A DNA stretch of 64,000 bases, taken from positions 1 through 64,000 of the forward strand of contig NZ_FOMQ01000018.1 in NCBI RefSeq assembly GCF_900112675.1, read 5' to 3'. The position numbers and the translations under genes are program-made. This DNA comes from Paracidovorax konjaci (GTDB taxonomy: Bacteria > Pseudomonadota > Gammaproteobacteria > Burkholderiales > Burkholderiaceae_C). Below are positions 18,464-53,376 of the stretch, one piece after another. Under the pieces are notes generated by a model, which made no database searches, was not told the origin of the DNA, and saw only the letters and a program-made list of their open reading frames with translations. Positions within the stretch are counted from its first letter, which is position 1. The number at the start of each line of letters is the position of its first letter.

Positions 18464-18548
18464 GCCCGGGTGGTGAAATTGGTAGACGCAGGGGACTCAA
18501 AATCCCCCGCCGCAAGGCGTGCCGGTTCGATTCCGGCCCCGGGCACCA
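18464..18548 (+). tRNA. tRNA-Leu (anticodon CAA)
   Basis: An 85-base tRNA with an encoded CCA. The acceptor stem pairs GCCCGGG with CCCGGGC. The anticodon arm is GGGGA-CTCAAAA-TCCCC, giving anticodon CAA (codon UUG). A variable arm and a GGTTCGATTCC T-arm follow, as expected for a type II tRNA. A CATAAT -10-like box lies at 18436-18441. The 3' 56 bases are the prophage attachment core; integration leaves this copy complete. Confidence 0.97.
18493..18548 (+). other. attL (prophage attachment core within tRNA-Leu)
   Basis: A 56-base sequence from the anticodon arm to the CCA end, identical to 53127-53182. The sequences diverge immediately outside both copies. Insertion into the 3' half of a tRNA gene is typical for tyrosine integrases. 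Confidence 0.95.
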
Positions 18549-18639: not shown

Positions 18640-19137
18640 TCAACGGCCGGGAAACTGCTTCCTGCGTCTACCTGGATCGATCCCTAAGTTCTCTGACACT
18701 TTTTGCCGGGACTCTTCACTGTCCCGGGTTACACGCGCCAGGAAGCTCACTGTCTCGTCGACTGTCGCCAGTTCCAACAAGCCACGGAACGGAAACGAAT
18801 CTGGCGGGCTGCCCTCTGCAGATTCGAGCCAAGCCCCATCAATTCTTAATGTGCCAGTCGTGCGCTCAGTCACCTCGATCTGCAGCGCCGACTTTCGGAC
18901 CCATTGACGAGATGATTCACTGACGGCCGTCACAGCGTCAGTCTGCTGCACCCCATTTCCAACACTCTTAGTCCTGCCCTCAAGACGCCACTTCCCATCC
19001 GCGCCCCAAGTTGTAACCGCCCAGACATATGCGCCGGACTCATCCTCAAGGCAGTGGATATGTATGCTCTCTTCCGGCTCGGCGGGATACCGGGCGATGC
19101 CAGAGAAAAGCACTCGCTTGGCTGCTCTTTCTTCCAT
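18640..19137 (-). CDS. Hypothetical prophage-end protein
   Basis: A 165-aa protein with no recognised domain. It has ordinary amino-acid composition, several beta-prone stretches (SIHIHCLEDESGAYVWAVTT) and a basic C-terminus. A GAGGAAG ribosome site sits just before the ATG. It is the last leftward gene before attL, a place where lysogenic-conversion genes are common. Another frame starts at 19301 inside the stop of the giant gene and overlaps this one; only one can be right over 18930-19137, and this one has the better start. Confidence 0.5.
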   Translation of the reverse strand: MEERAAKRVLFSGIARYPAEPEESIHIHCLEDESGAYVWAVTTWGADGKWRLEGRTKSVGNGVQQTDAVTAVSESSRQWVRKSALQIEVTERTTGTLRIDGAWLESAEGSPPDSFPFRGLLELATVDETVSFLARVTRDSEESRQKVSENLGIDPGRRRKQFPGR

Positions 19138-19297
19138 GGAAACTTCCTCAAATTCGCATCACGGTTCACAACTGCTCTGGTGATCACGCACTGGACAGGA
19201 AATTTCTTCACCTTCCATCGACGAACTAGTGCAGTCCTCCGGACAGCATACTTCGTCGGCTTGCTGTTGAGGTGCCGTTTCGCCGGATTTTCGCCCG

Positions 19298-22200
19298 TCA
19301 TGGAGCGATCGACAGCGCGCTCATCCGATGCCCGATCTCAGCCCGCAGCCGCTCGATCGTGTCCAGGCGCTGGCGCTTCTCCTCGCCGCTCATGCTCGGG
19401 TCGGCCGTGATCGCCTTGGAACGCTGGTTGAGCGCCGCCAGCCGCTCGCTGGCGTTGTTGAACGCGGCGCGGTGCTGGAGCTTCGGCGCCTCGTCGCGCA
19501 TGATCTCCTGGGCTTTCTCCAGGTCGCCCCGCTTGAGCGCGTCCCGGTAGGAGGCGTAGGCCTGCTCGACTTGCTTGGCCTGCTCGTACATCTGCGTGAC
19601 GTAGCGGCTGCTGCCCGACGGCAGGCTCTCGGCGAAGTTGCCCACTACGAACACGTCCTTGAGGCGCATGTCCGGCCGCTCGCCGCGGTCGAGCGCCGGC
19701 CGTGCGATCGCATCCGCTGCAGCCACCGCGGTGGTGCCGGCCCAGGAAAAGTACCCGCGCAGCAGGTAGTCCACCTGCTTCGGCGACAGGTCGGCCCATT
19801 CGCCCTTCAGCAGCCGGGCCGGGTCGGGCAGCCCCCAGGAGCCCAGCATGCGGGCTACCTCGGAGGTGCGCTCGTCGTAGCGGTCCTGGGAGCGCAGGCG
19901 CTGGTCCGCCTGACTTTCGATCGCGCGGCCGGTGAAGCTGTCCTTGTTGGAGTAGATGTCGATCAGCGGCTTGAACGCCTGCGGCATCGGGTCGAAGGAG
20001 AAGGTCTGCGACACCATGTGCGCCAGACGCTGCCGGAAGCGCTCGCCCGTCATCTCGTCGGACATCATCAGCTCCGCGGTGCGCTCGGCCAGCGTCCCGA
20101 TGGCCCCCACCTCGAAGGGCTTGGGGATGCGGTAGGCCGTGCCGCCGATCTTGAACCACCAGTAGCTGTCCCGGTCCCAGTCCTCGCGCTTCTTCCAGTC
20201 GTCGTCATCGCTGTAGGCGGCCATCAGGCCCAGGCTGGCAAGCGACACGGCGCCGGCCACCATGGCGAAGCGGCGCGGGTTGTCGTGGGCAGCGCGGCCG
20301 AGCTTGTACAGCCCCTGCAGCCGGGCATTCAGGAACGGTACGGACTGGGTGAGGAAACGTACCACGGCGTGGTTGCCGGACATGCTGAAGTCCATCAGGT
20401 CGCGGGCCATGAAGGAGGCTTCGGCATGGCTGTGTCCCTTCGCCACCAGGCGATCGTAGAGCGCGGCGCGGTTGACGTTCTCGGCCCGGTCGCCCAGTTC
20501 GCTGTAGGCATTCCAGACGGTGGACAGTTGGCCGGTCAGCTTCTTCCAGCCCTGCCGGTCCAGCACCACGCCGCCCAGCTTGGCCACCTGGTCTCGCAGC
20601 CGGTCGGTGTTCTCCTGCGTGCCGAACTTGATGATGCCGCCGGATGCCAGCATCGAGGCGTAGGTCTGGCTGTCGCGCGCCGTGAGCTTCCAGCCGCGCG
20701 CCACGTTGGCCGCCGGGTTGTAACCCAGCTCGGACTGCGCGATGGCCGAGAGGCTGTCCCGGATGAGGTTGCGGATCTTGAACGTCGGGTTCACCGTCAC
20801 GCCGAAGGTCAGCACCTGCTTCATCTTGGCCAGGGGCTTCATGAGCGGGCTCGCGGTGTAGTTGAGCGCGCTCACAGCCTCCAGCAGGTACGGATCCTCG
20901 ATGGTCCAGTGCTGCGCCTCGCCGTTGCGCATCACCTTCACCGCTCCCTTCGTGCCCTCCTGCACCGGGTAGGCCACGCCCAGCTTTTCCGCTGCGTCCA
21001 TCGTGGCGAGCGCGGCGCGGTTGCGTGCGGCTGCGGCGTAGAGGTGGCTCCAGTTCAGCAGCGTGTTCTGCAGCAGGTCGGCGTTCAGCTTCTCGGTCCC
21101 ACCCTTGAGCTTCTGCCAGGCCTTCTGGTTCACCAGCCCGGAGCTGAAGCGCCGGCCCTGCATCTCGCCGTCGGCCATCAGACGGTAGAACGGGACGTAG
21201 GGCTGGTCGCGGAACAGGTCATAGGCGCTCTGGTCGATCAGGCCCGAGTCAAGGGCCATCTTCAGCACGCCCTCGTTGAAGCTGTTGAGATCGGCCATGG
21301 CCTTGGCGTACACCGGGGCGCGGTTCGTGCCATCCGCCATGTTGCCGGCGTTGAGCGTCTTGAGCACTCCGATGTCGTCCACGCTCATCAGATTCTCTTT
21401 GCCCTCGGCCTTCAAGCGCCCGGCCCGCTGGGCGGCCACCCACCACAGGAAACGGTCCTGCTCGCCCTTCAGGCTGGCGAGCACGTTGGCGAAGCCGCCC
21501 TCTTTCACGTTCACGTCGGGCACGCCGTCGCGCAAGAACGGCCGGCCGTAGAGCATGGCCGCTTCCATGGTGCCATCGGCGCCCTTGGACATGCGCGCGA
21601 GCATGTACGCCTCCTGGCTCACGTCCTGGATGGGGGCGAACTGGTCGACCAGCGCCTGCTTGGCGCGCACCGCGAAGTTCTGGCGCAGGGCTTCGGCCCG
21701 CTGCTTGAGCGTGGGGACGGTTGCCGTGCCGGCCACCTTCTTCCACACTTTCTCCTGCACCGGGGTCATTTCGCCCATGCTCGACTCCACTGCAGCGGCG
21801 GGCGCGGTGCGGTAGCGCGAGATGTCCGGGCCCACGGTGGCGGCGCCATTCAGCGGCGCGCTGCCGGCGTTGTCGATGGCCTTCATGACGAAGCGCTCGG
21901 CCTCGTTGTAGGTCATTTTCCGGATGGCCGCACCCAGGCGCTCCATGCCCAAACGATCGGCCACGCTCGCAAGCCAGTTGGCCAGAGTGCGCACCCGCAG
22001 GCCCATGCGCGTGCCGGCCTGCTTCTGGGCGCGCAGTTCCTCCGCCACCACGGCCAGACCCTCCTCGATCGACAACGCTTCAAAGTAGCCATTGAGGGTG
22101 CTGCCTTTGTGGCCGGCGGCCTTCAGCGCCTCCAACTGCGCGGGCGCATCGGGCGAGAATTGCTTCCACCGAATGGCGTACTGCTGCACGCGGCTGTCCC

Positions 22201-25200
22201 GCTTGGCCAAGTCCAGCATGGTCTGCACGTAAACGGGGTCTGCCACAATATTGCGCAAACCTTGATGGAACAGCTCATGAAAGACAGTCTCGACGACATC
22301 CAGGGGGCTGGAGTGAGCGGAAGCGACGACGGCAAGCCGACCGTCAGGCATCCTCACCCCCTTCACGTAGTCCGGTTCCCCTTGCCCAAGGTCAGCGGCC
22401 CTCAGCACGACATCAACTGGTGGCGGGTTCCGGAGCCCCGCAAGGGCCTGCTTCACCGCCTGCTGGGCGTCTTCAAGCGATAGGCCACGGCCGGGCCCGG
22501 TGTCGCCCGTGCTGTAGAGCGACACACTGCCGTCGCCCTCCTGCCGCTTCTCCACCGCCTGGAAGAACGCATCGAACGCGCCGCGGATCTGCGGCATCTC
22601 GCCCGCCGTGGGGTACGGGTAGGCACCCTCCAGTGCGAACACGCCCGCCGGCACGATGTTCGCCAGGTAGTCGTTCCCCGCGCTCTGGTCCTGCAGCTTC
22701 GCCACCACGTAGCTCTCGAAGGCCCGGGCCGACATTTCGGGCTTCGTCGTCCAGTATTCCTTCGTGCGGCGATCGTCCAGCTTCTTGCTGCGCTCGAGCA
22801 TGCCGGTGCGGTTGATGGCCGAGCGAACCTCGCGGAAGGCGGTCCGCATCTCCTCGCGCACGCCCTGCCCTTGCCGTTCCTCCGCGGTCATGTAGCCGGC
22901 GCCGTCGCCGCGCTGCCGGGAGAAATAGTTGTCCAGCGCGTGCCACCATTCGTGAGCAAGGCTGCCGGCGCCCTCACGCTTGGTCAGGTTGATCACCACG
23001 CTGCCCGGCTCGTAGTGCGCCGCGGCGGCGTTCTGCCCGCCGGAGCCACGTGCGCCGAAGGCCAGGCCCAGCCGGCCACCCAGCGACAGCGCCCGGGGCG
23101 GCAGGTTCAGCACGCCGGCCAGATCCATCAGCGCGTCATAGGCGCGGTTCAGATCCTGCTGGCGCCGCGGCCTCTCGACGTAGTTGCCGAACTGCACGCC
23201 GCGGAAGCCGAAAGCCTCCTGGAACTGTTCGGGCGTGGCATCGCCTCCCTTGCGGTAGTCCTGGCCGATGCGCGGCGCGTTCTGGCTGTTGCGCACGGGC
23301 GGCACATCCTTGTAGCGCTGCAGCAGGTTCTCCAGCTCCGTCTGGTTGTCGGCCAGGTAGGCGCGGGCGGCCTTCACGTCGGGGAAGCCGGTCTTCAGCT
23401 CTGCCACGTTGCGGCCGATCTTCTTGCCGACGAAGAACTCCCGCGCACCGCCGGCCCGCTTGGAGTAGATCTCGAATGACGCACCGCGAACGGGCGCGCC
23501 CTGCTCGGCCAGCAACTCGGCGGATCGGCGCTTGAACGCCTCGATGGCGGTCTCCCGCGTGTCGCCCTTCGCCAGCTCGCGAGGCCAGTTGTTGAAGCTC
23601 GAAGCCTTGGCCGCACGCGAAACCGTCCAGATCGTGCGCGGCAGGTCGTAGGCCACGCCCTCATACATCGAGTACCGCCCGGCATCCAGCTTGATGTCCT
23701 TCAGGGAACGCTCATGGCCCACGGCCTCATAGAGCGCGGCCTGATTGGCGATGCCCCGGGGGATGCTGTCCCGGTGGAGTTCGGCCCGCACCGCGGCGGG
23801 ATCGTTCCGGCCGGAGAGCAGATCGTCAGCGAAGCCGCGCAGCATGGTGACGCGATCCGACCAGCCGCGCAGCTTCCACGTGGATTGGGGCTTGGTGGGC
23901 ACCGCGTCGCGCAGCGCCCGGGCGAGCGCCACGGTATCGGGAGCCGTGCCGCCTTCCAGCAGCTTGGCGTAGTCGGGCTCCGGCCAGGTCTTGGAGAGCG
24001 GGTGCGCCTTCACGTCCAGCTCCTTCGCCTTGGCCATGCCGTCGGCGTAGGCCTCGGCGTAAAGCATCTTCCGCGCGCCGGGCAGGGTCTCGCCGAAGTC
24101 CTCGATGCGGCCGGACTGCTGGGCGGCGGGAGCGGCTTCGGGAAAACCTACAGATCGTCGGTTTTGACCAGTGGACACATCCGCCGGACGCGCTGGGCCT
24201 GAGCGATCCTGCTGCTGCTCGCGTCGCTGAGGGGCGCTGCGCTGGTCCACCGCGCTGGACTTATCGGCGCCGGCCATGACTGTTTCGGGAGCATTTGCGG
24301 CCATGGGCGCCTTGGTGCTGCTCGCTCCGCTCTGCCCTGCTGCTCCTTCGCCTTGAGTGACCTTTTCGGAAGTGCCGCCTTGGGGCCGGTCGATACCAAG
24401 CGTACGGATTACGTCCGGCTGGTCCTGCCGGGTCCGGGCAGCATCGGCAGCATCCACCGCGGCCACCATCCGCTGCAGACTCATGCCGCGCACGTCCAGA
24501 TCCAGGGAGCGGGCCACGCGCGCCGCCTGCAGCGCATTCGTGCGCCAGTTCGGTGCTCTCTCGGCCTGTCCTTCAAATGCGGGATTCCCCCGCATTTGCG
24601 GCGCCGGATCACCACGGCCTTTCTTCTGCAGCACGTACCCGAGCGAGGCATCACCGCTGGCTGGCACCACCTCATGGCTGCCCGTTAGTTCGCGGCGCTG
24701 CAGCTCACGCTGTGCGGCCTGCTGCGAGGTGAACGGCGCGCCGCCCGCGCTGGTCACGGTATCCGGCACGGGCGTGGGCTCGTTGGCCCGGTTCACCACC
24801 TCGGCGCGGCGCTCCTGCCGCACACCGTCCGCGCCTGCCAACATACGGCCCGTGGGCGCGTTGTCATAGGCCAGTGCCGGCGTGGTCGGCTCCGCGGGCA
24901 GCGGGCGCACGGGCGTGATGTTGCTCATGCCCAGGTCGGCACGGCGCTGGCGCTCGGCCTCCAGCGCCAGGCGCTCTGCCTGGGCGGCGTTGATTCGCGC
25001 CACCGCCTCAGCCCGCGTTTCGGGGCGGACGCCTTCAGGCCCGGCCACCATGCGGCCGGTAGGAGCCGGGTCGAACGTCAGGGCGCCGGCTTCTGCAGTG
25101 GCGGGCACCTGATTGCGCTCTTGCGGGCTCAGGCGCAGCGTGGGCTGCACGTCGAAGCCCCGGCCGCTCGGGTGAGGCACCACCGATACCGCGATCCCAT

Positions 25201-27043
25201 CCTGTGCGGCACGCTGTCGCAGCGCATGGGCTTCGTTCAGCCGCATCGGCTCGCCGGGCGTGCGGCCATCCGCCACCGCCAGGGCCGCGATGCGGGCTGC
25301 TGCCGGATCTTCCCGGCGCGCTTCGGTGGTGAAGTCGATGCCGTTCCCATAGCTGGGAGCCGCGACGGGCTGCAGGCTCAGGCGGGCATCGGGGTTTGCC
25401 TGCCGGGCGCGCTGGTACGCAGCCGGGGCGAAGTTCGCATGCAGTGCGTTTTCCGCCTCCGACCGCACCGACAAAGGCAGCGTCTGGTCCTGGGCGGTAG
25501 CAAGCGCTTGGCGGAACGCGGGCTGTGCCTCGGGCCGCACCATGCTGTCGATGAGACCGGCATAGCTCGCCACGTCGGAAAGGTCGGCCGGCTGGGGCTC
25601 GAAGGTGCGCACTACGCGGCCCGACTCCATTCCGGCCAGCACCTCCTGGTCGGAGGGCGTAGGCGCGGGAATGAGCGCCCGGGCTTCGGATTCGCGCATG
25701 GCCCGGACACCTGCGGGAAGGTCCGCTCGCTCCAGGTCTGCGAGGGTCATGCGTGCCGCGCGCTGCTGTTCGGGCGACAGCTGATCGAGTGCCGCCCCCA
25801 GTTGCTGCCGCACATCCGGCGCTGACGGCGGCGCGGGCGGAGTGATGGGGGCGAGCCCCAAGTCGCCGGCCATGACCGCAGCCTTCGACATCGGGCCGTC
25901 CGCCGGATTGATGGCGGGTGGTGCTGCTGGTGCTGTAGCACCAGCAGGGTCGGCAGTCGGTGCCGCGGCCTGCGAACGCTGGAACTGCTCCGGGTTGAAT
26001 GCCTGGTGCAGGGCGTCCGCTGCCGCCTTGCGCTCCTCGGCCGGGCGCTGCTCGTCCAGGGCGCGGGCCAGAGTGTCGCGGTACTGCTGCTGGTTCTCGG
26101 GCTTCACCATCTGGTCGATCAGCCCGCCGTACTCTGCGACATCGGGCAGTCCGGTGCTGGACGTGGGGTGCAAATCCTGCACCCCATCCCCGACGCTCTG
26201 GGACGCCGACGCATCCACGGAAGCCTGCTGATCGGCGGCCTTCTGCTGGCCGCGGGCCCGCGCTCCGTCCACCACACCAGCACCTGCCCCCATGACGCCA
26301 CCGCCGATGGCGCCCATTGCCGCGGACAGGGCCGTGTCTTCCAGGTTTTCGCTGGTAGTGGGGTTCTTGAATGCACCCCACTGCTCGACCATGTTCTGGG
26401 CGCCTTCGGTCGCGCCCTCGCGCACGGCGCCCTTGCCCATTTCCTTGAGGATGGTGCTGGGCTTGCCGGGGATGCCCTTGATCACATCCAGCATCTTCCC
26501 CATGCCCACGCGCTCGAGCGCTGTGGCGGGGATGGCAGCGGCCAGGGCACGGGCTTTGTCCTCCTGCCCGGATGCCTGCTGCTCCTGGCGGATGCCGCCG
26601 TATTCCTGCGTGAAGATGGGCACCAAGCTGCCCACGGCGCCGCCGATTGCCGCGCCAGCCGGCCCGAACACTCGCCCTGCCCGTGCACCAGCCGCCCCAC
26701 CAGCAGCAGATGCTGCGATTTGCGGCGCGAACTGTGCCGCCGATTCCTTCACCGCAAGCCACGGGCTGTCCACCAGGTCGCGCAGGCTGCGGATACCGGC
26801 CGGGTTGCGGTCGATGATTCCCTGGCCCGTCTCCTTTACGGCCCGGGTCGCCGTGTTGGAACCGATCACGTCCTCGGCCGCGGTGGCTGCCGTGGTGAGC
26901 ATTTGGCCACCGGTGCGCTTGATCGTCGAGATGACGCCGGGAGCGGCGGGCCCAGGCGCTGGCGCGGCGCCGGTCTCAACAAGAGTGCCGCCAAACGCGT
27001 CGGTGTTGGGGATGAGGTCGCCGCCAAATTGATCTTGTGCCAT
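19298..27043 (-). CDS. Giant (2581-aa) polyvalent virion protein with two HExxH motifs and LPD1/LPD38-like regions
   Basis: Nearly a quarter of the prophage. The N-terminal third is low-complexity, rich in Ala, Pro and Gln. It has a Gly/Ala hydrophobic stretch (about 100-150) and an imperfectly repeated block, GLIDxMVxPE, starting near 301 and 490. Around 1270-1400 lies an LPD1-like region (FGFRGVQFGN) with a zincin motif, HEWWH at 1364-1368. A second motif, HELFH, is at 1589-1593. The C-terminal ~880 residues resemble the LPD38 family (LLLNWSHLYAAAARNRAALA; SMSGNHAVVRFLTQSVPFLN) with one hydrophobic helix near 2255. Such proteins are thought to be packaged and injected with DNA. ATG at 27043 was preferred over GTG at 27058 because AGGTGG lies upstream. 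Confidence 0.85.
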   Translation of the reverse strand: MAQDQFGGDLIPNTDAFGGTLVETGAAPAPGPAAPGVISTIKRTGGQMLTTAATAAEDVIGSNTATRAVKETGQGIIDRNPAGIRSLRDLVDSPWLAVKESAAQFAPQIAASAAGGAAGARAGRVFGPAGAAIGGAVGSLVPIFTQEYGGIRQEQQASGQEDKARALAAAIPATALERVGMGKMLDVIKGIPGKPSTILKEMGKGAVREGATEGAQNMVEQWGAFKNPTTSENLEDTALSAAMGAIGGGVMGAGAGVVDGARARGQQKAADQQASVDASASQSVGDGVQDLHPTSSTGLPDVAEYGGLIDQMVKPENQQQYRDTLARALDEQRPAEERKAAADALHQAFNPEQFQRSQAAAPTADPAGATAPAAPPAINPADGPMSKAAVMAGDLGLAPITPPAPPSAPDVRQQLGAALDQLSPEQQRAARMTLADLERADLPAGVRAMRESEARALIPAPTPSDQEVLAGMESGRVVRTFEPQPADLSDVASYAGLIDSMVRPEAQPAFRQALATAQDQTLPLSVRSEAENALHANFAPAAYQRARQANPDARLSLQPVAAPSYGNGIDFTTEARREDPAAARIAALAVADGRTPGEPMRLNEAHALRQRAAQDGIAVSVVPHPSGRGFDVQPTLRLSPQERNQVPATAEAGALTFDPAPTGRMVAGPEGVRPETRAEAVARINAAQAERLALEAERQRRADLGMSNITPVRPLPAEPTTPALAYDNAPTGRMLAGADGVRQERRAEVVNRANEPTPVPDTVTSAGGAPFTSQQAAQRELQRRELTGSHEVVPASGDASLGYVLQKKGRGDPAPQMRGNPAFEGQAERAPNWRTNALQAARVARSLDLDVRGMSLQRMVAAVDAADAARTRQDQPDVIRTLGIDRPQGGTSEKVTQGEGAAGQSGASSTKAPMAANAPETVMAGADKSSAVDQRSAPQRREQQQDRSGPARPADVSTGQNRRSVGFPEAAPAAQQSGRIEDFGETLPGARKMLYAEAYADGMAKAKELDVKAHPLSKTWPEPDYAKLLEGGTAPDTVALARALRDAVPTKPQSTWKLRGWSDRVTMLRGFADDLLSGRNDPAAVRAELHRDSIPRGIANQAALYEAVGHERSLKDIKLDAGRYSMYEGVAYDLPRTIWTVSRAAKASSFNNWPRELAKGDTRETAIEAFKRRSAELLAEQGAPVRGASFEIYSKRAGGAREFFVGKKIGRNVAELKTGFPDVKAARAYLADNQTELENLLQRYKDVPPVRNSQNAPRIGQDYRKGGDATPEQFQEAFGFRGVQFGNYVERPRRQQDLNRAYDALMDLAGVLNLPPRALSLGGRLGLAFGARGSGGQNAAAAHYEPGSVVINLTKREGAGSLAHEWWHALDNYFSRQRGDGAGYMTAEERQGQGVREEMRTAFREVRSAINRTGMLERSKKLDDRRTKEYWTTKPEMSARAFESYVVAKLQDQSAGNDYLANIVPAGVFALEGAYPYPTAGEMPQIRGAFDAFFQAVEKRQEGDGSVSLYSTGDTGPGRGLSLEDAQQAVKQALAGLRNPPPVDVVLRAADLGQGEPDYVKGVRMPDGRLAVVASAHSSPLDVVETVFHELFHQGLRNIVADPVYVQTMLDLAKRDSRVQQYAIRWKQFSPDAPAQLEALKAAGHKGSTLNGYFEALSIEEGLAVVAEELRAQKQAGTRMGLRVRTLANWLASVADRLGMERLGAAIRKMTYNEAERFVMKAIDNAGSAPLNGAATVGPDISRYRTAPAAAVESSMGEMTPVQEKVWKKVAGTATVPTLKQRAEALRQNFAVRAKQALVDQFAPIQDVSQEAYMLARMSKGADGTMEAAMLYGRPFLRDGVPDVNVKEGGFANVLASLKGEQDRFLWWVAAQRAGRLKAEGKENLMSVDDIGVLKTLNAGNMADGTNRAPVYAKAMADLNSFNEGVLKMALDSGLIDQSAYDLFRDQPYVPFYRLMADGEMQGRRFSSGLVNQKAWQKLKGGTEKLNADLLQNTLLNWSHLYAAAARNRAALATMDAAEKLGVAYPVQEGTKGAVKVMRNGEAQHWTIEDPYLLEAVSALNYTASPLMKPLAKMKQVLTFGVTVNPTFKIRNLIRDSLSAIAQSELGYNPAANVARGWKLTARDSQTYASMLASGGIIKFGTQENTDRLRDQVAKLGGVVLDRQGWKKLTGQLSTVWNAYSELGDRAENVNRAALYDRLVAKGHSHAEASFMARDLMDFSMSGNHAVVRFLTQSVPFLNARLQGLYKLGRAAHDNPRRFAMVAGAVSLASLGLMAAYSDDDDWKKREDWDRDSYWWFKIGGTAYRIPKPFEVGAIGTLAERTAELMMSDEMTGERFRQRLAHMVSQTFSFDPMPQAFKPLIDIYSNKDSFTGRAIESQADQRLRSQDRYDERTSEVARMLGSWGLPDPARLLKGEWADLSPKQVDYLLRGYFSWAGTTAVAAADAIARPALDRGERPDMRLKDVFVVGNFAESLPSGSSRYVTQMYEQAKQVEQAYASYRDALKRGDLEKAQEIMRDEAPKLQHRAAFNNASERLAALNQRSKAITADPSMSGEEKRQRLDTIERLRAEIGHRMSALSIAP

Positions 27044-27137
27044 CTGGCAACTTTCCACCTATAGCGGTGGCAGGTCTAACCCCAGCAGGGGGGGCGTGCA
27101 GACAGCAGTTTGGGAGGCTTTGCACGGGGCCCAGAAA

Positions 27138-34926: not shown

Positions 34927-37032
34927 TCAGGTGCGGATGCCATCGGCTTCCAGGGTTTCGATGCCCGCCTCCTCGCCTCTCGCAGGACTGGCGGGGGTGA
35001 GTGGGTCCGTGTTGCGCGGCATGTCCAGTGCGGGCAGCGCGCCGGCCGGCTGGGGCACGATGGGCGCGGCGTCGTGGTCCTTGTAGTTGGCCGAGCGCAG
35101 CAGGCTGTCCGCGAGCGGTGCCACCGCCGGGTTCTGGGCGATCACCTGGGCAGTCTGCGCGCCGCTGTACTGGGTCTTCACGGCGACGTCCGTGGCCTGG
35201 GCATCGGTCTTCCGGGTCTGGGCATCCAGCAGGCGGACGCGCGCCTCCTGCGTCGGATCTGCCGGCGGTGTCCCGGCCTGCTGCATGGAAGCCAGGATCT
35301 CCTGCTTGTCGGCCAGGTTGCTGTACCGCAGCACTGCGGGATCCGGAATGGCGATACCAGCCTTTCGCATCTCCAGCGCCTGTTGGAACTGGCTGTTCTG
35401 GAACGTCACCTGCATGGGTTGCTCGGTGATGACCACGTCGTAGGTGCCCACGGTCACGTCGTTCAGATAGCGGCCGGTGGCCGGGTCGAACTTATTGATC
35501 TCGATGACTTTTTCCTGCGGCTTCCCCGTCATCGGGTCCGTCTCGGTGATGCGGAAGATGCGGTAGCTGTCGTAGTACCGCTGGATCAGCTTGACCAAGC
35601 GCAGGGCCAGTAGGTGGCGCGTGTAGTTCAGGTTGTCTAGCGGGACGGCGAGCTGCTGCTGCGCGGCGAACTGCTTCGACTGGATAGCCACGCCCGACAC
35701 TTCGGGGCCCTGCTGCCCACGCATGGCATCGGGCACCGTCACGTCCTTCAGCGCCTTGTCCGCCCGGTCGATCAGCCGATCCACGCCCGTGGGCACCTGA
35801 TTGGGCTGGATCTTCTGCGGCGCCTTCGAGCCCTTCTTGTATTCCAGCACCAGCCCGGTCTGACCGCCGCGAGCCTGCAGCTCGTCCAGCTTCATGTTCG
35901 TCAGGGAGTTCTCCTCCACCGCCCAGCCGCTGTTGGCTGCCGTGTTGACGATGTGGATGTACTGCGAGACGGCCTTGTTCAGGATCTCCTGCGGCCCGAT
36001 GGCGTCATCCACCATCCCGCTCGTCTTGCCGCGGCGGAAGTAGGCGAAGTACGGCACCACGGTGTAATGCTCATAGGGGCTGTAGGTGTCGTGGAGCGTG
36101 GCGGTGAAGGTAGTGACGGTCCACTTCACGCGGCGCTGCATGCGGCGGGCCCGCACCGCGCCATTCTGCAGAGCGTCCAGGATCGAGTCCGGCGCCATCA
36201 CCTCCTCCACCTGCACGTCGCCCGTGCGCGGCCAGACGATGCAGTCGGTCAGCTCGTACACGAACCGCTGCCGGTCGAGGATGCGGTAGCGCTCTAGCCC
36301 ATCTTCCTTCTTCGCACACGCATCGAAGAAGTGGCCCATCCGGTCGCGCGAAGCGAACTTGCTGCGCTCCACCTCGTCGTCGATGTCTCCGAAGTCCTGG
36401 CCGGCGTCGTGCGATTCCTCGGCCGCCTTGCGTGCCTTCTTCCCATAGCGCTGCTCGATCTCGTCCAGGGTCAGCCACCGGGAGACGATGACGTCGCCCC
36501 AGTCGTCCGGGTCGTAGCTCTTCGCGTCCGGGTCCGGCACCACGTCCATGGGATCCAGCGTGGACACCTCGATCTCGCCCTGGATGTTCCGGTTGAAGTC
36601 CATGCGCACGTCGTAGTAGCCGCGCTGCTGGATGACCCCATCGCTGAACATCTGGGTTTCGTGCCAGTGCAGATTGCACAGGTCCGCCACCTGCATGACC
36701 ACCTTGGAAAGGATGGTGGCCGTGTCGAGGTCGCTGTCCCCGCCGCGGGGCTTCAGCGCGATGTCGAGCCGGTTGTGGATCTGGTAGCCCACGGCGCTGT
36801 TCACGCTGGGCTTGATGCCGTTCAGTTCGTAGCAAGGACGGCGCTCCGATGCGAGTTGGGCCCGTGCCGCATTGGTCCACTGCCGGCCGCCGCCCATGTA
36901 CATATCCTCGCAGCGCGCGGCCTGCATGAGGTAGTCCAGGTGCCCCCGGTCCTTCCCGTACTGGTAGCGCTGCCAGTTGGAGCGCGCGGCGTCGTCGCCG
37001 GTGCTGATGACGGGTGTGCTGTTCATGTTCAT
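34927..37032 (-). CDS. Portal protein, P22-like
   Basis: A 701-aa protein forming the dodecameric ring through which DNA enters and leaves the capsid. N-terminal WQRYQYGKDRGHLDYLMQAA and RRPCYELNGIKPSVNSAVG, and a long helical core (YTRHLLALRLVKLIQRYYDS), match P22-type portals. The length also fits that group. The start overlaps the terminase stop by four bases (ATGA), showing coupling. Candidate ATGs at 37032 and 37026 differ by two residues. Confidence 0.88.
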   Translation of the reverse strand: MNMNSTPVISTGDDAARSNWQRYQYGKDRGHLDYLMQAARCEDMYMGGGRQWTNAARAQLASERRPCYELNGIKPSVNSAVGYQIHNRLDIALKPRGGDSDLDTATILSKVVMQVADLCNLHWHETQMFSDGVIQQRGYYDVRMDFNRNIQGEIEVSTLDPMDVVPDPDAKSYDPDDWGDVIVSRWLTLDEIEQRYGKKARKAAEESHDAGQDFGDIDDEVERSKFASRDRMGHFFDACAKKEDGLERYRILDRQRFVYELTDCIVWPRTGDVQVEEVMAPDSILDALQNGAVRARRMQRRVKWTVTTFTATLHDTYSPYEHYTVVPYFAYFRRGKTSGMVDDAIGPQEILNKAVSQYIHIVNTAANSGWAVEENSLTNMKLDELQARGGQTGLVLEYKKGSKAPQKIQPNQVPTGVDRLIDRADKALKDVTVPDAMRGQQGPEVSGVAIQSKQFAAQQQLAVPLDNLNYTRHLLALRLVKLIQRYYDSYRIFRITETDPMTGKPQEKVIEINKFDPATGRYLNDVTVGTYDVVITEQPMQVTFQNSQFQQALEMRKAGIAIPDPAVLRYSNLADKQEILASMQQAGTPPADPTQEARVRLLDAQTRKTDAQATDVAVKTQYSGAQTAQVIAQNPAVAPLADSLLRSANYKDHDAAPIVPQPAGALPALDMPRNTDPLTPASPARGEEAGIETLEADGIRT

Positions 37033-39713
37033 CCTGCTGCTTGGTCCCAGCCGGCGGCGCCCTGGGAAGTGAGACGGTCACGCCAGGACCGCTTCTGCGG
37101 CTTGGGCGCGGGGGAAGGGATGGCGGCGTCGAACGTCATGGCCACGCTGTCGCCTTTGTCCGGACTGCGGCCCAGGATCTCGCGGATGTCGTCCTTGCTG
37201 CTGATCTGGATGGCGGCCTGTCGGCCCAGCGTGACCACCTTGTATCGAGGGGCTGCGAGGTCGCCGATCAGTTCGGGATCGAACGGAAGCGCGATCGGGT
37301 CCGGACCGGTGGGGTCCAGGGCTTCGCGCAGGCGCCAGTACATCTCGGCCCGCTTGTTGCGGAAGCGCAGTTGGCCGGCCTTGTCCATCAGTTCGCTCGC
37401 GGATGAGCCCACCACGGGATGCACGTTCAGGCCCAGGCCGACGAGGAAGTCGAGAGCGCTGGAGCCGATGCCGATGGAGTCCACGCAGATCGGGGCACTG
37501 TCGCGCACTAGGGGCGTCACGAAAGCCGCAGCCGTCGGGCCGTCCTTCGTCACCACGCCCGGGGCGGTGACCACCTTGTCGAACCAGTTGCCGTGCCGGC
37601 GGGCAGCCGACGACTTGTCCTGGCCGCCACGGGATGGATCGAAACCCAGGGCCGTCATCGGTCCCTTGTGCTCGCGGTCCTTCCAGCGCGCCTGGGCGGC
37701 CTTGAGCCATTCGGTGGGGATGAGCTGCCACACAGGATCGCTGGAGCCCGCGTTGAAGTCGCCGCGCAGCATTTGCGAGCGGAGCGGCTCGGGCAGCGCC
37801 TGCAACGTGGCCTTGTACCCAGTAGCCATCAAGAAAAGGTTGTCATCCACGCGGGAGGGGATGAATGTGCGGCTCTTCGGCTGCATTAGCTCGTCGCCCA
37901 CCATCACGGGCGTGGAGTCGGACACCTCTTGGTCCTCACCCTTGGCGTTGGTCACGTACCAGCGCAGCTCGCCTGGCTTGGCCGGGTTCGGGTGGTTCGG
38001 GTCCAGCCAGGCGGCCCAGTACCGCTTCACCCATTCGCCTTCCGGTCCGGTCGGCGGGTTGCCGGCTGCCACCACACGCTGCCGCACCTTGGGATTGTCC
38101 GTACGCATCCACGCGATGAGCGTGCGGAACTGCGTCTCGGTGAAGTGGGCGACCTCGTCGAAGCCCTTGAAATCGTGCGGGCGGCCCTGGTACTTGATCC
38201 AGTCGCCGGGCATCTGCACGCTTCCAAGCTCCAGCACCTTGCCACCTGGCAGGCGCCACAGATGGTCCTGGCCGTTGTAGCCATTGCGCGAGCCTAGGAT
38301 GGTGGCCATCCGCTCTTCCAGGCCGATCAGCTGCACGGCCTCGCGGCGGAACACGATGCTTCGCTCCTGCTCGGTGAGCGGCAGGCCCAGCAGCAGGTCC
38401 GTGTTGTGCGTGGCCACCATAGCATCGCCAGCCAAGAACTGGCGGCTGGGGCTGTCCACGCTGATACAGCGGGTGAGCACGCTTTCGATGGAGCTGCACT
38501 CCACCAGATACCGGAAGCCCGTGGTGCGGCGCGTGCGCGATTTCATGCGCGCCAGATGCCGCGGCAGGGTAAACACCGGCATGCTGGTGGTGAAGCAAAC
38601 CCGCCACCTGTCGCTGATCACCTCACCGTTCAGCATGGCCTTGCCCTTGGTCAGCGTGGCCTTGATGCCGAGAGACCTTGCCAGCTCCAGCACGCTCCCT
38701 GCGATTCCTTGATGCGTGGTGGTGAACTCCGCGCCGCCGTCGGAGGCCACGTAGCCGTCGGTGTCCATTAGGCCCTGGAGCAACTCCAGGCGCTGGCGCG
38801 CGCTGCCGCGCAGGTACACGGGAGGAACGTGTTTGTTGTGCAACAGGCCCACGCAACGGAGAGCCTGCAGGAGGCCGAGCACGTTGTGCTGGTTGTCCGC
38901 CCATTCGTAAGTGCGCACCTCAAAGCCATCTGCGCGGATGCGCGCGACGATTTCCAGGTCTTGTGCCGTGATCTGGGAGTTGGCGGACGCCCCGTGCCCC
39001 AGCCAGGCGCCCAGCGTGTATGGCGCAATGGGAAGAACCAGCTCCGGCAACTGGAACGGTGCATTCAAGGCGATGGCGTGATTCGCACGGCCAGAAGCAG
39101 TTCGGAGCGTCGCGGCCAGCATCACGGTGTCACGCATGGTTCCACGAGGAATGTCCGGTACGTGCGATTCAGCTCTGGCCCTGTTTCTCTCGATGAGGGC
39201 TGCCGTGAAGGCGGGAGACTTGTTTCCGCTGATCCGGGACGGGCGCGAGGCTCTGCGCTTCGCGCGCCAGGCCGGCGCCATGCGCGTGAGGGAGGTCAGC
39301 TCTGCGGCACTGAACGTGACCCAACGGTGCACGTCATCGGCCACCAGCTCCGAGCCATCGTCGAACCGGAGCTTGAAGCACTCGCGCTGCTGAACAGGGC
39401 TAACGCCAGTCACACGGCATGGCGATCCGTCCGGGTCGATCAAGAAGTCACCGACCTGCAACTCTCCCATCGTCGTCCAACCGGTGGGCGTGGGCAATGG
39501 CGTGCCCAGGGCGAGTCCCTTCCCGCCTCCGGCACTCCCGCCGTAGAACAGGATGTCGGCCTGCGAGTGGAATGCGGCCGACTGCGGGCCGGCCTGGGGC
39601 ACCCAGATAGCCGGGTTCGCCATCATCAGGAAGGAATCTACGGCGGCGCGCTGCTCGGGCGTCAGGCCCTGCAGCGCTTTCATCAGCTCCGCGGCGTCAG
39701 GCACCTGGCTCAC
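37029..39713 (-). CDS. Terminase large subunit precursor with an internal intein
   Basis: The 894-aa precursor starts at a GTG that overlaps the small-terminase stop. Residues 1-65 end in GGSAGGGK; an intein of 372 residues follows; the host protein resumes with TDLLLGLPLTEQERS, so splicing restores GGSAGGGKT, a proper Walker A motif. The ATPase domain continues with FKGFDEVAHF (Walker B region) and VVAAGNPPT. The nuclease domain has GFDPSRGGQDKS and ICVDSIGIGSSA. The mature protein would be 522 aa. It drives ATP-powered packaging and cuts the DNA. Unspliced precursor should lack ATPase activity because the P-loop is split. Confidence 0.93.
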   Translation of the reverse strand: MSQVPDAAELMKALQGLTPEQRAAVDSFLMMANPAIWVPQAGPQSAAFHSQADILFYGGSAGGGKGLALGTPLPTPTGWTTMGELQVGDFLIDPDGSPCRVTGVSPVQQRECFKLRFDDGSELVADDVHRWVTFSAAELTSLTRMAPAWRAKRRASRPSRISGNKSPAFTAALIERNRARAESHVPDIPRGTMRDTVMLAATLRTASGRANHAIALNAPFQLPELVLPIAPYTLGAWLGHGASANSQITAQDLEIVARIRADGFEVRTYEWADNQHNVLGLLQALRCVGLLHNKHVPPVYLRGSARQRLELLQGLMDTDGYVASDGGAEFTTTHQGIAGSVLELARSLGIKATLTKGKAMLNGEVISDRWRVCFTTSMPVFTLPRHLARMKSRTRRTTGFRYLVECSSIESVLTRCISVDSPSRQFLAGDAMVATHNTDLLLGLPLTEQERSIVFRREAVQLIGLEERMATILGSRNGYNGQDHLWRLPGGKVLELGSVQMPGDWIKYQGRPHDFKGFDEVAHFTETQFRTLIAWMRTDNPKVRQRVVAAGNPPTGPEGEWVKRYWAAWLDPNHPNPAKPGELRWYVTNAKGEDQEVSDSTPVMVGDELMQPKSRTFIPSRVDDNLFLMATGYKATLQALPEPLRSQMLRGDFNAGSSDPVWQLIPTEWLKAAQARWKDREHKGPMTALGFDPSRGGQDKSSAARRHGNWFDKVVTAPGVVTKDGPTAAAFVTPLVRDSAPICVDSIGIGSSALDFLVGLGLNVHPVVGSSASELMDKAGQLRFRNKRAEMYWRLREALDPTGPDPIALPFDPELIGDLAAPRYKVVTLGRQAAIQISSKDDIREILGRSPDKGDSVAMTFDAAIPSPAPKPQKRSWRDRLTSQGAAGWDQAAG
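38403..39518 (-). other. Intein (372 aa) in TerL Walker A, class 3-like, with degenerate homing endonuclease
   Basis: Inserted between Lys65 and a Thr. The N-terminal block is GLALGTPLPTPTGWTTMGEL, with Gly at position 1 where most inteins have Cys or Ser. Block B has Trp66 (DDVHRWVTF), block F has Cys351 (TRCISVDSP), and the end is MVATHN followed by Thr. Trp, block-F Cys and the Thr before His-Asn form the WCT set of class 3 inteins. A LAGLIDADG-type region is present: LGAWLGHGAS near 169-178 and LLQGLMDTDGYV near 246-257. The first motif has His175 at the catalytic Asp position, so cleavage activity is probably lost. Confidence 0.88.
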
Positions 39714-40510
39714 TGCATGCCCCCGGTGCCCACCAGTTGAGCCAGCGTGGAAGCCAGCGAGGGATTGGACGACAGCACCGCGTGCATCCGGACGGACCGC
39801 TCGGCGTCGGTCATGTTGCGCAGGGCCAGCGGATCGGACTTCTGATGGTTGTCCTTCTCGTACATCCCGAGGTGCCGCGCCAGCTTCTCCAGAGCGTCCA
39901 TCTTCGAGTGCATCTGCACCTCGATGCCGTTCCTGCCCGTCTTGGCGCCCGCGTACAAGGCCGCGGCATGCGGGCTCAATGCTCGCGTGTCCTTCAGCAC
40001 AGTCCTGGGAAGCCCGTCGCCGCTGCATTCTGGGCAGTCTGGGTGCGGCGCGCGCAGAGAGTCGAATCCAATGCCGCCCTCCTCGTCCCATTCCTCGTCC
40101 GGCTTGCCTTTCGCTCGATGAGCTTCCCCGTCCTTGTTGTACTCGGCCAAGGTGCGCTGCCGCTTGTGACCCTCGCTGTGGCAGTGCCGGCAGCAACCCA
40201 CCTTCACCTCCACCAACTCGCGAGGGTCGGCCGTGGCGATCAGGGCGAGATGGCGCAGCACGGTGTCCGCGTTGATCTGCAGTCGAATCTGCTGCTCTTG
40301 GCGGGCTGCGGAGACTGCTGCCTGGATGTTAGGGCGTGCTAGTAGCTGGGAGGCCTGAACGTTCGCGCAGTTGGCGCTGTAGCCTGCCCGGATTGCCGCC
40401 TGGGCGCCGTTCAGGTCGATCAGGTACTCGGCGACGAACCTCTGCTGCAGCGGAGAGAGTTCCAGGGCTTGCGCCGTGGCGCCTTCTCTCTGGACCGGCG
40501 GGGGCGCCAC
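39710..40510 (-). CDS. Terminase small subunit, core part downstream of an in-frame stop
   Basis: Contains ELSPLQQRFVAEYLIDLNGA and AIRAGYSANCANVQASQLLA, the Terminase_2 signature for binding the packaging site. A zinc-finger-like insertion follows, CCRHCH and later CPECSGDG. From the GTG at 40510 it is 266 aa, but that start has no ribosome site. The frame stays open upstream to a TAA at 40598, beyond which an HTH-like piece in the same frame fits the missing N-terminus. Either translation restarts here or the gene is damaged. The stop overlaps the large-subunit GTG. Confidence 0.8.
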   Translation of the reverse strand: MAPPPVQREGATAQALELSPLQQRFVAEYLIDLNGAQAAIRAGYSANCANVQASQLLARPNIQAAVSAARQEQQIRLQINADTVLRHLALIATADPRELVEVKVGCCRHCHSEGHKRQRTLAEYNKDGEAHRAKGKPDEEWDEEGGIGFDSLRAPHPDCPECSGDGLPRTVLKDTRALSPHAAALYAGAKTGRNGIEVQMHSKMDALEKLARHLGMYEKDNHQKSDPLALRNMTDAERSVRMHAVLSSNPSLASTLAQLVGTGGMQ

Positions 40511-50861: not shown

Positions 50862-51439
50862 ACGCACACCAGCCCAAGTCCCGAAGCCTGGTGGCCGCCA
50901 TGATGGCGGACGAAGCTGCGAAACGTCAGGCCCGTTCTGCTGCCGAAGCTCTGGCCAACGTACCCGAGATCGTTGATGTCGCGGCCTGGTATACGCAGCA
51001 CACCGCCCTGCTCCACCAGCTCCTGCACCACGCGATCAAGCGAGTGGCCGCTGCCCCCGTGAGCAAGCAAACCCAGCGGGTGATCCAGTCGCTGGGCCGG
51101 ACGCATGCCGATTTGCAGGCGCACACCGCGAAGATCGCCGGCCCGGCCGTGCCGCGAGTGCTCGCCCGTGATGGGGTGCACACCATCGAATACGACCGCC
51201 TCGCCGAAGCGCGGGCGAAGGTCCAGGTGCTGACCGAAGAACTGGAGAGCATGCGCGCGGAGAAGGCATGGCAGCCGCAGTTCAATGTCATGTCGCCGAA
51301 GCAGGAGACCCTGGCCCTGCAATTCTGCCTTGAGATCGCAGGCCGGCGGGGCGAGCCTGGGGCGCTGCCCGACCCCGTCCGCCTGCTGGAGATGGCCCAG
51401 GCTCTGTACGAGGCCGAGCGGGAGGAGTGCGCACCATGA
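50858..51439 (+). CDS. Hypothetical early protein (193 aa)
   Basis: Helical, with LVAAMMADEAAKRQARSAAE and a possible coiled coil (RLAEARAKVQVLTEELESMR). Four-base overlaps on both sides. No family recognised. Confidence 0.6.
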   Translation: MNAHQPKSRSLVAAMMADEAAKRQARSAAEALANVPEIVDVAAWYTQHTALLHQLLHHAIKRVAAAPVSKQTQRVIQSLGRTHADLQAHTAKIAGPAVPRVLARDGVHTIEYDRLAEARAKVQVLTEELESMRAEKAWQPQFNVMSPKQETLALQFCLEIAGRRGEPGALPDPVRLLEMAQALYEAEREECAP

Positions 51440-51786
51440 CCGAAGCTATCTCTTTCACCAAAGAAGACACCGTGGCTTTGTGGCACGCCGTGGAGTGGAT
51501 GGCAGAAGTCGTGCGCGTGACGCGCGACGATGGCTCGAAAGACGAGCAGGCCCGCGCGCAGTACGAAGTCGAGCTAGGCCGCCTCATCGCCGCCAAACGC
51601 GCCCTGCGCAAGGCCAACGCGATCCGCAAGAGCCAAGCACAAGCTGCGAAGTTGCGCAATTCAGCAAACTGCAGTTCTGCCGAGGGTTTGCAGGCCGACC
51701 GGAAATCTGCCGGCCGAGCGGAAACACGCAGGACAGGCAAGAACCTGCAGGCCGACCAGCAAACAGCAAGAGGTGCAGGAGGATGA
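51436..51786 (+). CDS. Hypothetical early protein (116 aa)
   Basis: Begins MTEAISFTKEDTVALWHAVE; the second half is basic and polar with repeated LQAD (GLQADRKSAGRAETRRTGKN). ATGA overlaps on both sides. No family recognised. Confidence 0.6.
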   Translation: MTEAISFTKEDTVALWHAVEWMAEVVRVTRDDGSKDEQARAQYEVELGRLIAAKRALRKANAIRKSQAQAAKLRNSANCSSAEGLQADRKSAGRAETRRTGKNLQADQQTARGAGG

Positions 51787-52007
51787 AGCCCGACCCGCTC
51801 TCCACCGAGCTGCTTCAGCCAAAGGAGTTGGCCGACCTGACGGGCACGGCGAACCTCGACCAGCAAGAGCGCATCCTGACCCAGGACGGCATCCCCTACC
51901 GCCGGCGCGGCAATCGCATATTGGTCAGCCGCTACCACGCACGCGAGTGGCTGTCCGGCCGCGTGGTCACGCCGGCCCGCGGCGTGAACCTCGGACTCGT
52001 GACATGA
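51783..52007 (+). CDS. DUF4224 protein (74 aa), excisionase-like
   Basis: LLQPKELADLTGTANLDQQE, then ILTQDGIPYRRRGNRILVSR is the DUF4224 pattern, a small winged-helix-like domain usually encoded immediately before a tyrosine integrase. By position it may act as directionality factor (Xis) or integrase regulator. An AGGAGG ribosome site overlaps the previous gene's end, and its own stop overlaps the integrase ATG. Confidence 0.8.
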   Translation: MKPDPLSTELLQPKELADLTGTANLDQQERILTQDGIPYRRRGNRILVSRYHAREWLSGRVVTPARGVNLGLVT

Positions 52008-53029
52008 CCAATACCTACCCTCGGCTTCGATCCCACACCCGCAAGCGTGCCAATGGCAAGGTGGTGGTCTACTACTTCTACGACATGCGACACCAGGGGA
52101 CGCCAGACATACCCCTGGGCACGGACTACGAGGCTGCGATCCGGCGCTGGAAGGAGATCCACTTCGAGACGGGCCCGTCAATTGCCGGGACGCTGGAAGA
52201 GGCATTCGCCGCGTGGGAAATCGAGGTGCTTCCCACCTACGAAAGCAAGGTCACCAAGGCCGGATACACCAAGCACCTCCGCCGGATCCGGCCGGTGTTT
52301 GGCCCGTCCACCTGGGATCAGGTCACGCTGCCGATCCTCAAGGCCTACCTCCGCAAGCGAACCGCCAAGACACAGGGCAATCGCGAGATGGCGCTACTGT
52401 CGCTCATCTGGAACTGGGCTCGCGTCGAAGGCTACACGGCACTGCCATGGCCTGCGCATGGCATGGAGCGGTCGAAGTGGAAGAACAAAGAGAAGCCGCG
52501 CAAGATGAAGGTGCCCGACCACCTGTACGCCGCCATCTACTCTCAAGGCGACCAGGTGCTGCGGGACTGCATGGATCTGGGATCAGCGACGGGCATGCGC
52601 CTGACCGATTGCATCACGGTGTTGATGCCTCGCGGAGACGTGCTCCACCTGGAGGCCAGCAAGACGGGCAAGGAGGCAGAGTGGGACCTGAGCTTGTCGC
52701 ACACCCTCCCAGGCCTGCTACAGCGCAGGCGGGCGACGCCAGCGAATCACCTGATGCTGCTTTCCACCCCGGACGGCAAGCCCGTCAACTTCACCAAGCT
52801 GCGCTACCGCTGGGACATTGCCCGCGACCAAGCCGTGGTGGTGGCCGGCCTGGCAAACGATGACGAACTGGTGCGTGCAATCAAGGCGCTCTACTTGCGG
52901 GACATGCGCAAGCGCGCTGCTCAGAAATCGGAGAGTCTGGACGCCGCATCGGAGCTGCTGCAGCACGCAGACAAGCGCATCACGGAGCGCCATTACGGCG
53001 GCGTCAGAAAGCTCAAACCTGTAGGCTGA
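52004..53029 (+). CDS. int: Tyrosine-recombinase phage integrase
   Basis: A 341-aa recombinase acting on the 56-bp att core next to its 3' end. The N-terminal arm-binding region is followed by a core-binding SAM-like domain (~residues 65-150). The catalytic domain has Arg in SATGMRLTDC, Lys in EASKTGKE, LRDMRKRAA (second Arg), LLQHADKRIT with His, and the nucleophilic Tyr in ERHYGG. As in other DUF4224-associated integrases, the first His of the H-x-x-R motif is not His. It is the last gene of the early operon. Confidence 0.95.
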   Translation: MTNTYPRLRSHTRKRANGKVVVYYFYDMRHQGTPDIPLGTDYEAAIRRWKEIHFETGPSIAGTLEEAFAAWEIEVLPTYESKVTKAGYTKHLRRIRPVFGPSTWDQVTLPILKAYLRKRTAKTQGNREMALLSLIWNWARVEGYTALPWPAHGMERSKWKNKEKPRKMKVPDHLYAAIYSQGDQVLRDCMDLGSATGMRLTDCITVLMPRGDVLHLEASKTGKEAEWDLSLSHTLPGLLQRRRATPANHLMLLSTPDGKPVNFTKLRYRWDIARDQAVVVAGLANDDELVRAIKALYLRDMRKRAAQKSESLDAASELLQHADKRITERHYGGVRKLKPVG

Positions 53030-53126: not shown

Positions 53127-53182
53127 GGACTCAAAATCCCCCGCCGCAAGGCGTGCCGGTTCGATTCCGGCCCCGGGCACCA
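53127..53182 (+). other. attR (56-bp copy of the tRNA-Leu 3' end)
   Basis: Identical to 18493-18548. It lacks the tRNA 5' half, so it is not a functional tRNA gene. The integrase stop lies 97 bases upstream. The rest of the gap up to 53376 holds nothing else that can be supported. Confidence 0.95.
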
Positions 53183-53376
53183 GCGCTGCAGCCACTGCGG
53201 TGCTTCATAGACCTCCGGCTTCCTCGCCAGCCACGGGCGCAGACCGATCCGGCAGCGGTCTTCCCTTCCAAACACCTTTTTTTCTCGCACGCAGCCTGCT
53301 GCCTTCCGCCGACCCCGAAGGCTCACTGGCCACGCACGTTCGCGTGTGCTGGAAAAGCGTGTTCAGTTTCAGCAAT

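Follow-up and report, generated by a model that had tools for sequence, protein, structure and literature searches.

What 372 residues are doing inside the ATP-binding P-loop of a phage large terminase is the question raised by terL, a gene on the minus strand of the 64,000-nucleotide stretch of Paracidovorax konjaci DNA analysed here (assembly GCF_900112675.1, contig NZ_FOMQ01000018.1, positions 1 to 64,000; hereafter the window). By translation, terL (37029-39713) encodes a precursor of 894 residues that matches the large terminase families of PHROG (phrog_979, E 5e-32; phrog_15, E 2.2e-26; phrog_2, E 1.1e-23), and its Walker A Lys is separated from the next Thr by the insert. With a probability of about 0.93, we regard this insert as a class 3 intein that splits the P-loop of a prophage large terminase and would rebuild it by splicing, and its nested endonuclease as probably inactive. 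Minus-strand translation places the insert at 38403-39518, between GGSAGGGK and TDLLLG, as an earlier note made from the sequence had it. The frame is open with no stop codons, running from GLALGTPL to MVATHN between the flanks YGGSAGGGK and TDLLLGLP. Upstream lies an N-extein of 65 residues (39519-39713) ending in the Walker A motif GGSAGGGK, and downstream a C-extein of 457 residues plus stop (37029-38402) starting with Thr(+1)-Asp-Leu-Leu-Leu-Gly. When the insert is left out, the Walker A motif GGSAGGGK-T is formed, PHROG terminase families match, and the computed product is 522 residues long (894 minus 372), in agreement with the length the note had predicted for the spliced protein; the same length, 522 residues, is annotated for the TerL of Acidovorax phage AP1, which has no intein (record span 19075-20643). 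Composition is of little help, as the GC content at third codon positions is 0.80 in the intein and 0.88 and 0.86 in the exteins.

The assignment to class 3 is carried by the splicing residues. Excerpts of the published work, on which all citations here draw, describe class 3 inteins as lacking the first nucleophile and bearing Trp at B:12, Cys at F:4 and Thr at G:5, with the Cys, a block B His and the Thr arranged as a protease-like triad in the structure of the Mycobacterium chimaera intein (PMC5050341, PMC7664689). The insert follows this description. Its N-terminal splicing (HINT) part (residues 1-75; 39294-39518, minus strand) begins with Gly1, hence without a Cys or Ser nucleophile, and contains His64 and Trp66 in block B, the latter at position 12; its C-terminal splicing part (residues 336-372; 38403-38513, minus strand) contains Cys351 at block F position 4 and ends with Thr370 at block G position 5, His371 and Asn372. 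Gly1, Trp66, Cys351 and the terminal Thr-His-Asn had been read correctly in the note, and its class 3 assignment is supported by the splicing residues and by a predicted HINT fold resembling that of solved class 3 inteins. In an alignment of 171 inteins (the window and 170 relatives, from 191 open reading frames after incomplete inteins and identical sequences were dropped), His64, Trp66, Cys351, Thr370 and Asn372 are invariant and His371 is shared by 166. Lys precedes the intein in 165. At +1, where the window has Thr, 119 inteins have Ser and the other 52 have Thr. Cys or Ser occupies the extrapolated first position in only two, L225, where a one-residue slip is apparent, and L123, where a Ser after GGGK remains an exception. 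A chance pattern is ruled out since phmmer matches the solved DnaB inteins (6rix, E 2.3e-24; 6bs8, E 2.9e-24) in two stretches that correspond to both ends of the insert.

Could the insert instead be a stable domain that is never removed? Nothing more than its in-frame position speaks for this, and we give it almost no credence: the Walker A Lys is split from its Thr, fold and residues are of the class 3 intein type, and the same gene family mostly does without the insert. Among 89 terminase loci (80 from IMG/VR, one phage, and eight from relatives of the genome), 84 are empty at exactly this boundary with a Walker A-type motif, two are cut off before the site, and three carry an intein there (the window's own IMG/VR record, L020 and L021); the IMG/VR set comprises the best 80 of 151 by whole-query similarity, and these counts are therefore not frequency estimates. 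A terminase family in which the insertion is a stable domain, named in the note as grounds for rejection, is thus not what was found. When the window flanks are joined, they align without gaps to the four empty alleles tried (249/300 identical bases for L056, 244/300 for L022, 198/240 for L001 and 240/296 for L024). The window's own genome has one match only to the terminase, and among 399 genomes drawn from the family, eight, including this one, have a terminase at E 1e-60 or better; the other seven are empty.

Between the two splicing parts lies a LAGLIDADG homing endonuclease part (residues about 151-335; 38514-39068, minus strand), in which alignment with relatives and PI-SceI identifies two motifs, LGAWLGHG and LLQGLMDTDG, with PF14528 and PF05204 matches around the second. 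Profile alignment places His175 (codon 38994-38996, minus strand) in the first motif on residue 218 of PI-SceI and Asp254 (codon 38757-38759, minus strand) in the second on residue 326, which we take to be the two catalytic aspartates of that enzyme. An acidic catalytic residue is therefore found in only one of the two motifs, His having replaced Asp in the first and Asp254 being kept in the second. Across the 171 inteins, residue 254 is Asp in 166, and residue 175 is Asp in 163, Gly in three, Asn in two, and Ala, Glu and His in one each, His being found in the window alone. The endonuclease is thus probably inactive and homing lost, a prediction that rests on the lost catalytic aspartate and not on overall decay. 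It is unlikely that His175 is tolerated and that the enzyme still homes into empty terL alleles. Asp254 and a conserved Lys229 are intact, the domain is modelled with high confidence, empty target alleles are many, and the nearest host gene is empty, which implies a fairly recent gain or loss. Against this, the altered residue aligns with Asp218 of PI-SceI, none of the other 170 sequences has His there, and an archaeal VMA intein without these aspartates was inactive in cleavage, which an excerpt of its report attributes to the loss of active-site residues (PMC8966425). The same report sets such aspartate loss in the homing cycle after fixation (PMC8966425); fixation is not the obvious cause here, because empty terL alleles are common.

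Substitutions of this kind recur elsewhere: in 12 of the 171 class 3 inteins, that of the window included, one or both motifs lack Asp at the catalytic position. The others are L124, L160, L168, L171, L176 (an acidic Glu), L185, L186, L201, L203, L232 and L281, and many of these inteins are actinobacterial DnaB inteins. Between the HINT part and the endonuclease, residues about 81-120 (39159-39278, minus strand) form a helical, basic insertion that has the lowest predicted local distance difference test scores of the model (69-89 in blocks of ten); its length is much the same in L020 and L021, but many of 19 aligned sequences have only a short version or none. It could be a DNA-recognition element. 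At three further loci (L117, L118 and L112) the N-terminal part resembles that of a class 3 intein, but the open frame, of 203-299 residues, ends before block G; the tblastn match continues past the frame end, and these are possibly broken or frameshifted inteins.

When the histories of intein and host gene are compared, the inteins group with each other and not by host gene. The intein tree, built on 171 rows by a quick method, places the window intein in a clade of eight terminase P-loop inteins (SH-like approximate likelihood-ratio test, SH-aLRT, 100). This clade is nested in a larger group with 49 rows, 46 of them terminase-like by P-loop motif (SH-aLRT 97); by the same motif, terminases host 47 of the 171 inteins. 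The C-extein tree, with 86 rows of which 14 are occupied, joins the window as a pair to the empty L056 (ultrafast bootstrap 99) and L020 to the empty L050 (99), and it groups L021 with two empty alleles (99). Since each of the three adjoins empty alleles, the tree does not support their vertical descent as a single lineage that carried the intein throughout. Occupancy on this tree takes eight changes, at least seven of them forced by supported branches; shuffled occupancies averaged 13.3 changes, with none of 500 as low as eight. Occupancy is scattered, yet more clustered than random. We infer that the intein either entered the window's lineage from an unsampled donor after L056 had split off, or was lost in L056, and either event implies a mobile history. 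The window intein is 59 and 57% identical to those of L020 and L021, below the C-extein identities of 74 and 73%, so that no recent direct transfer among the three is shown; the donor lineage, if any, is unsampled.

Several observations weigh against a class 3 intein that splices with a disabled endonuclease. Firstly, Pfam and NCBIfam match the LAGLIDADG part of the window and not its splicing part, the only Pfam matches above cut-off being LAGLIDADG_3 and Hom_end. Of the profile search called for in the note, the matches to LAGLIDADG models and, through phmmer, to solved class 3 DnaB inteins materialized, as did the agreement of block A, His-x-Trp, block F Cys and the THN end with known class 3 inteins, and those to splicing-domain models did not. 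The lack of a profile match, named in the note as a ground for rejection, is therefore confined to the dedicated splicing-domain models of these general libraries. We read these misses as insensitivity of the libraries to the class 3 subfamily, because the splicing models fail on most class 3 inteins in a second alignment, A2, of 75 sequences (the window plus 74 of 90 references, 16 having been left out by hand for brevity; the 90 are the nearest of 145 non-redundant inteins). The NCBIfam C-terminal intein model TIGR01443 matches 10 of the 75, not including the window, and two Pfam HINT models match two and one. Up to 59 of the 75 are matched at E up to 0.1 by NCBIfam models that cover intein-containing proteins as a whole (NF045703, NF038136 and NF005852 match 56, 47 and 29), the matched part being unspecified, and the window is matched by NF006207 only (E 0.025). 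As the splicing models match so few, class 3 intein genes can be misannotated. Secondly, the relatives came in part from two pattern searches, of which 80 of 255 matches and 80 of at least 584 were kept. Some of the patterns hold an HRW motif, which accounts in part for the invariance of His64 and Trp66 but has no bearing on that of Cys351 and Thr370. Thirdly, the window has the longest intein tip in its clade of eight (0.57) as compared to a host tip of 0.09, a rough comparison since the trees differ in columns and method. Fourthly, private changes at otherwise invariant columns are not significantly more frequent in the endonuclease (16 of 86, residues 151-335) than in the splicing parts (6 of 61; p 0.17; the linker, residues 76-150, with 2 of 22, was left out), and a decay burst specific to the endonuclease is accordingly not supported. 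How these changes are shared out between endonuclease and splicing parts is no different in the window from what is seen in five near relatives taken together (p 0.76). Compared with these five, the window has more private changes in the endonuclease part (p 0.0001), and also in the splicing part (6/61 versus 9/284, p 0.03). From the long tip and the private changes in the splicing part, it follows that splicing may be weak or slow.

Carried further, the same two features would suit a decayed intein that no longer splices, leaving a dead terminase and a defective prophage. We judge this to be somewhat less likely still than a working endonuclease. The catalytic splicing residues are all intact and the frame is open throughout, the C-extein and its nearest empty allele still share 88% identity over 448 columns, and the prophage retains attachment-like repeats together with terminase, portal, capsid and replication genes.

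For an intein that still splices, as we favor, a course of events can be proposed. After translation, the HINT domain would fold within the precursor, and Cys351, helped by His64, Trp66 and Thr370, would attack the peptide bond between Lys and Gly1; the N-extein would then be transferred to Thr+1, Asn372 would cyclize, and the exteins would be joined to rebuild GGSAGGGK-TDLLLG in a 522-residue terminase. These steps are modeled on those described for class 3 inteins in an excerpt of PMC4031507, and it is by analogy that we infer such chemistry for the window intein. Because the insert splits the P-loop, ATP binding, and hence packaging, would presumably wait for splicing. The nested endonuclease would once have provided mobility by cutting empty terL alleles and would later have lost one of its two catalytic aspartates. 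As an unspliced terminase should not bind ATP, selection would keep the splicing residues and the element would persist; it looks like a formerly mobile element that is kept because splicing is obligatory. It is also conceivable, if quite improbable and less so only than a stable domain, that the intein was retained after the loss of homing as a post-translational switch, in which a redox-sensitive block F Cys delays P-loop assembly until induction. A control role for terminase inteins has been proposed by the authors describing cyanophage Mic1 (PMC7156551). The five terminase inteins tested in PMC5050341 spliced readily, which favors quick, constitutive splicing over a switch. Were the switch to exist, prophage DNA packaging would be licensed by protein splicing.

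Among known systems, PI-SceI (VMA1) offers a fold match over the whole length, with a HINT domain and a two-motif LAGLIDADG domain; unlike the window, it has Asp at both motifs, and it splices by the class 1 route with Cys1. The mycobacterial class 3 DnaB inteins (6bs8, 6rix) share the HINT fold, a block A of the form LALxTPLPTPxGWTTMG, His-x-Trp, the block F Cys and the THN end, and related DnaB loci fetched here also carry the insertion after the P-loop Lys; their host is a helicase, the solved chains comprise only 139-146 residues and leave no room for an endonuclease, and Ser rather than Thr stands at +1 in the DnaB-type loci that were listed. Further counterparts are the other P-loop class 3 inteins of TerL, in L020, L021, L125, L205-L207 and L209, which share the boundary, 56-59% intein identity and a clade with support of 100, yet retain Asp at the first LAGLIDADG motif. 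In the annotated terminase of Mycobacterium phage Tomaszewski (L103), too, an intein with the Trp/Cys/Thr set follows the Lys of a P-loop-like stretch. Terminase inteins as such are already published, as are insertion at this point of the P-loop and the occurrence of class 3 inteins in terminases: the excerpted text of Kelley et al. 2016 (PMC5050341) describes mycobacteriophage TerL1 inteins with LAGLIDADG endonucleases, an insertion site (TerL1-a) between the P-loop Lys and Thr, and class 3 inteins with the Trp-Cys-Thr triplet in terminases. Those hosts are actinobacteriophages, unlike ours, the class 3 terminase inteins are named at sites c, d and e, and the two endonucleases tested (sites b and c) were active. 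The one particular feature of the window intein is the lost catalytic aspartate, which is also missing in seven others of the 171, with other residues in its place. The locus is a clean illustration of how the intein homing cycle runs in temperate phages, with occupied and empty alleles at one codon and, among them, a copy that has lost an endonuclease catalytic residue while keeping every catalytic splicing residue; for biology at large it is ordinary.

The gene neighborhood is that of a prophage. The GTG start of terL overlaps the stop codon of terS, the small terminase gene (39710-40510, minus strand; phrog_51, E 1.4e-40), a portal protein gene (34927-37032, minus strand; phrog_156, E 4.4e-107) lies on the other side, and PHROGs also identify a major head protein gene nearby. 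A tRNA-Leu (CAA) gene is located at 18464-18548, and its 3' part recurs as a direct repeat of 66 bases (97% identity, the last 45 bases of the tRNA being exact) about 34.7 kb away at 53127-53192; the pair are probable attachment sites of the prophage and would mark its two borders. Neither these borders nor the motif change at residue 175 of the intein had been picked up in the note. Beside the second repeat, an open reading frame at 51773-53029 (plus strand) has the look, by eye, of a tyrosine-recombinase integrase with conserved Arg, His and Tyr near its end; Pfam gave no integrase match for it at E 0.001. A DUF4224 match lies in a short stretch (51285-52007, plus strand) that overlaps the 5' end region of this open reading frame in another frame. 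Lastly, 19298-27058 (minus strand) encodes a single phage protein of 2586 residues that matches several PHROG families of very large proteins without assigned function (phrog_18222, phrog_616).
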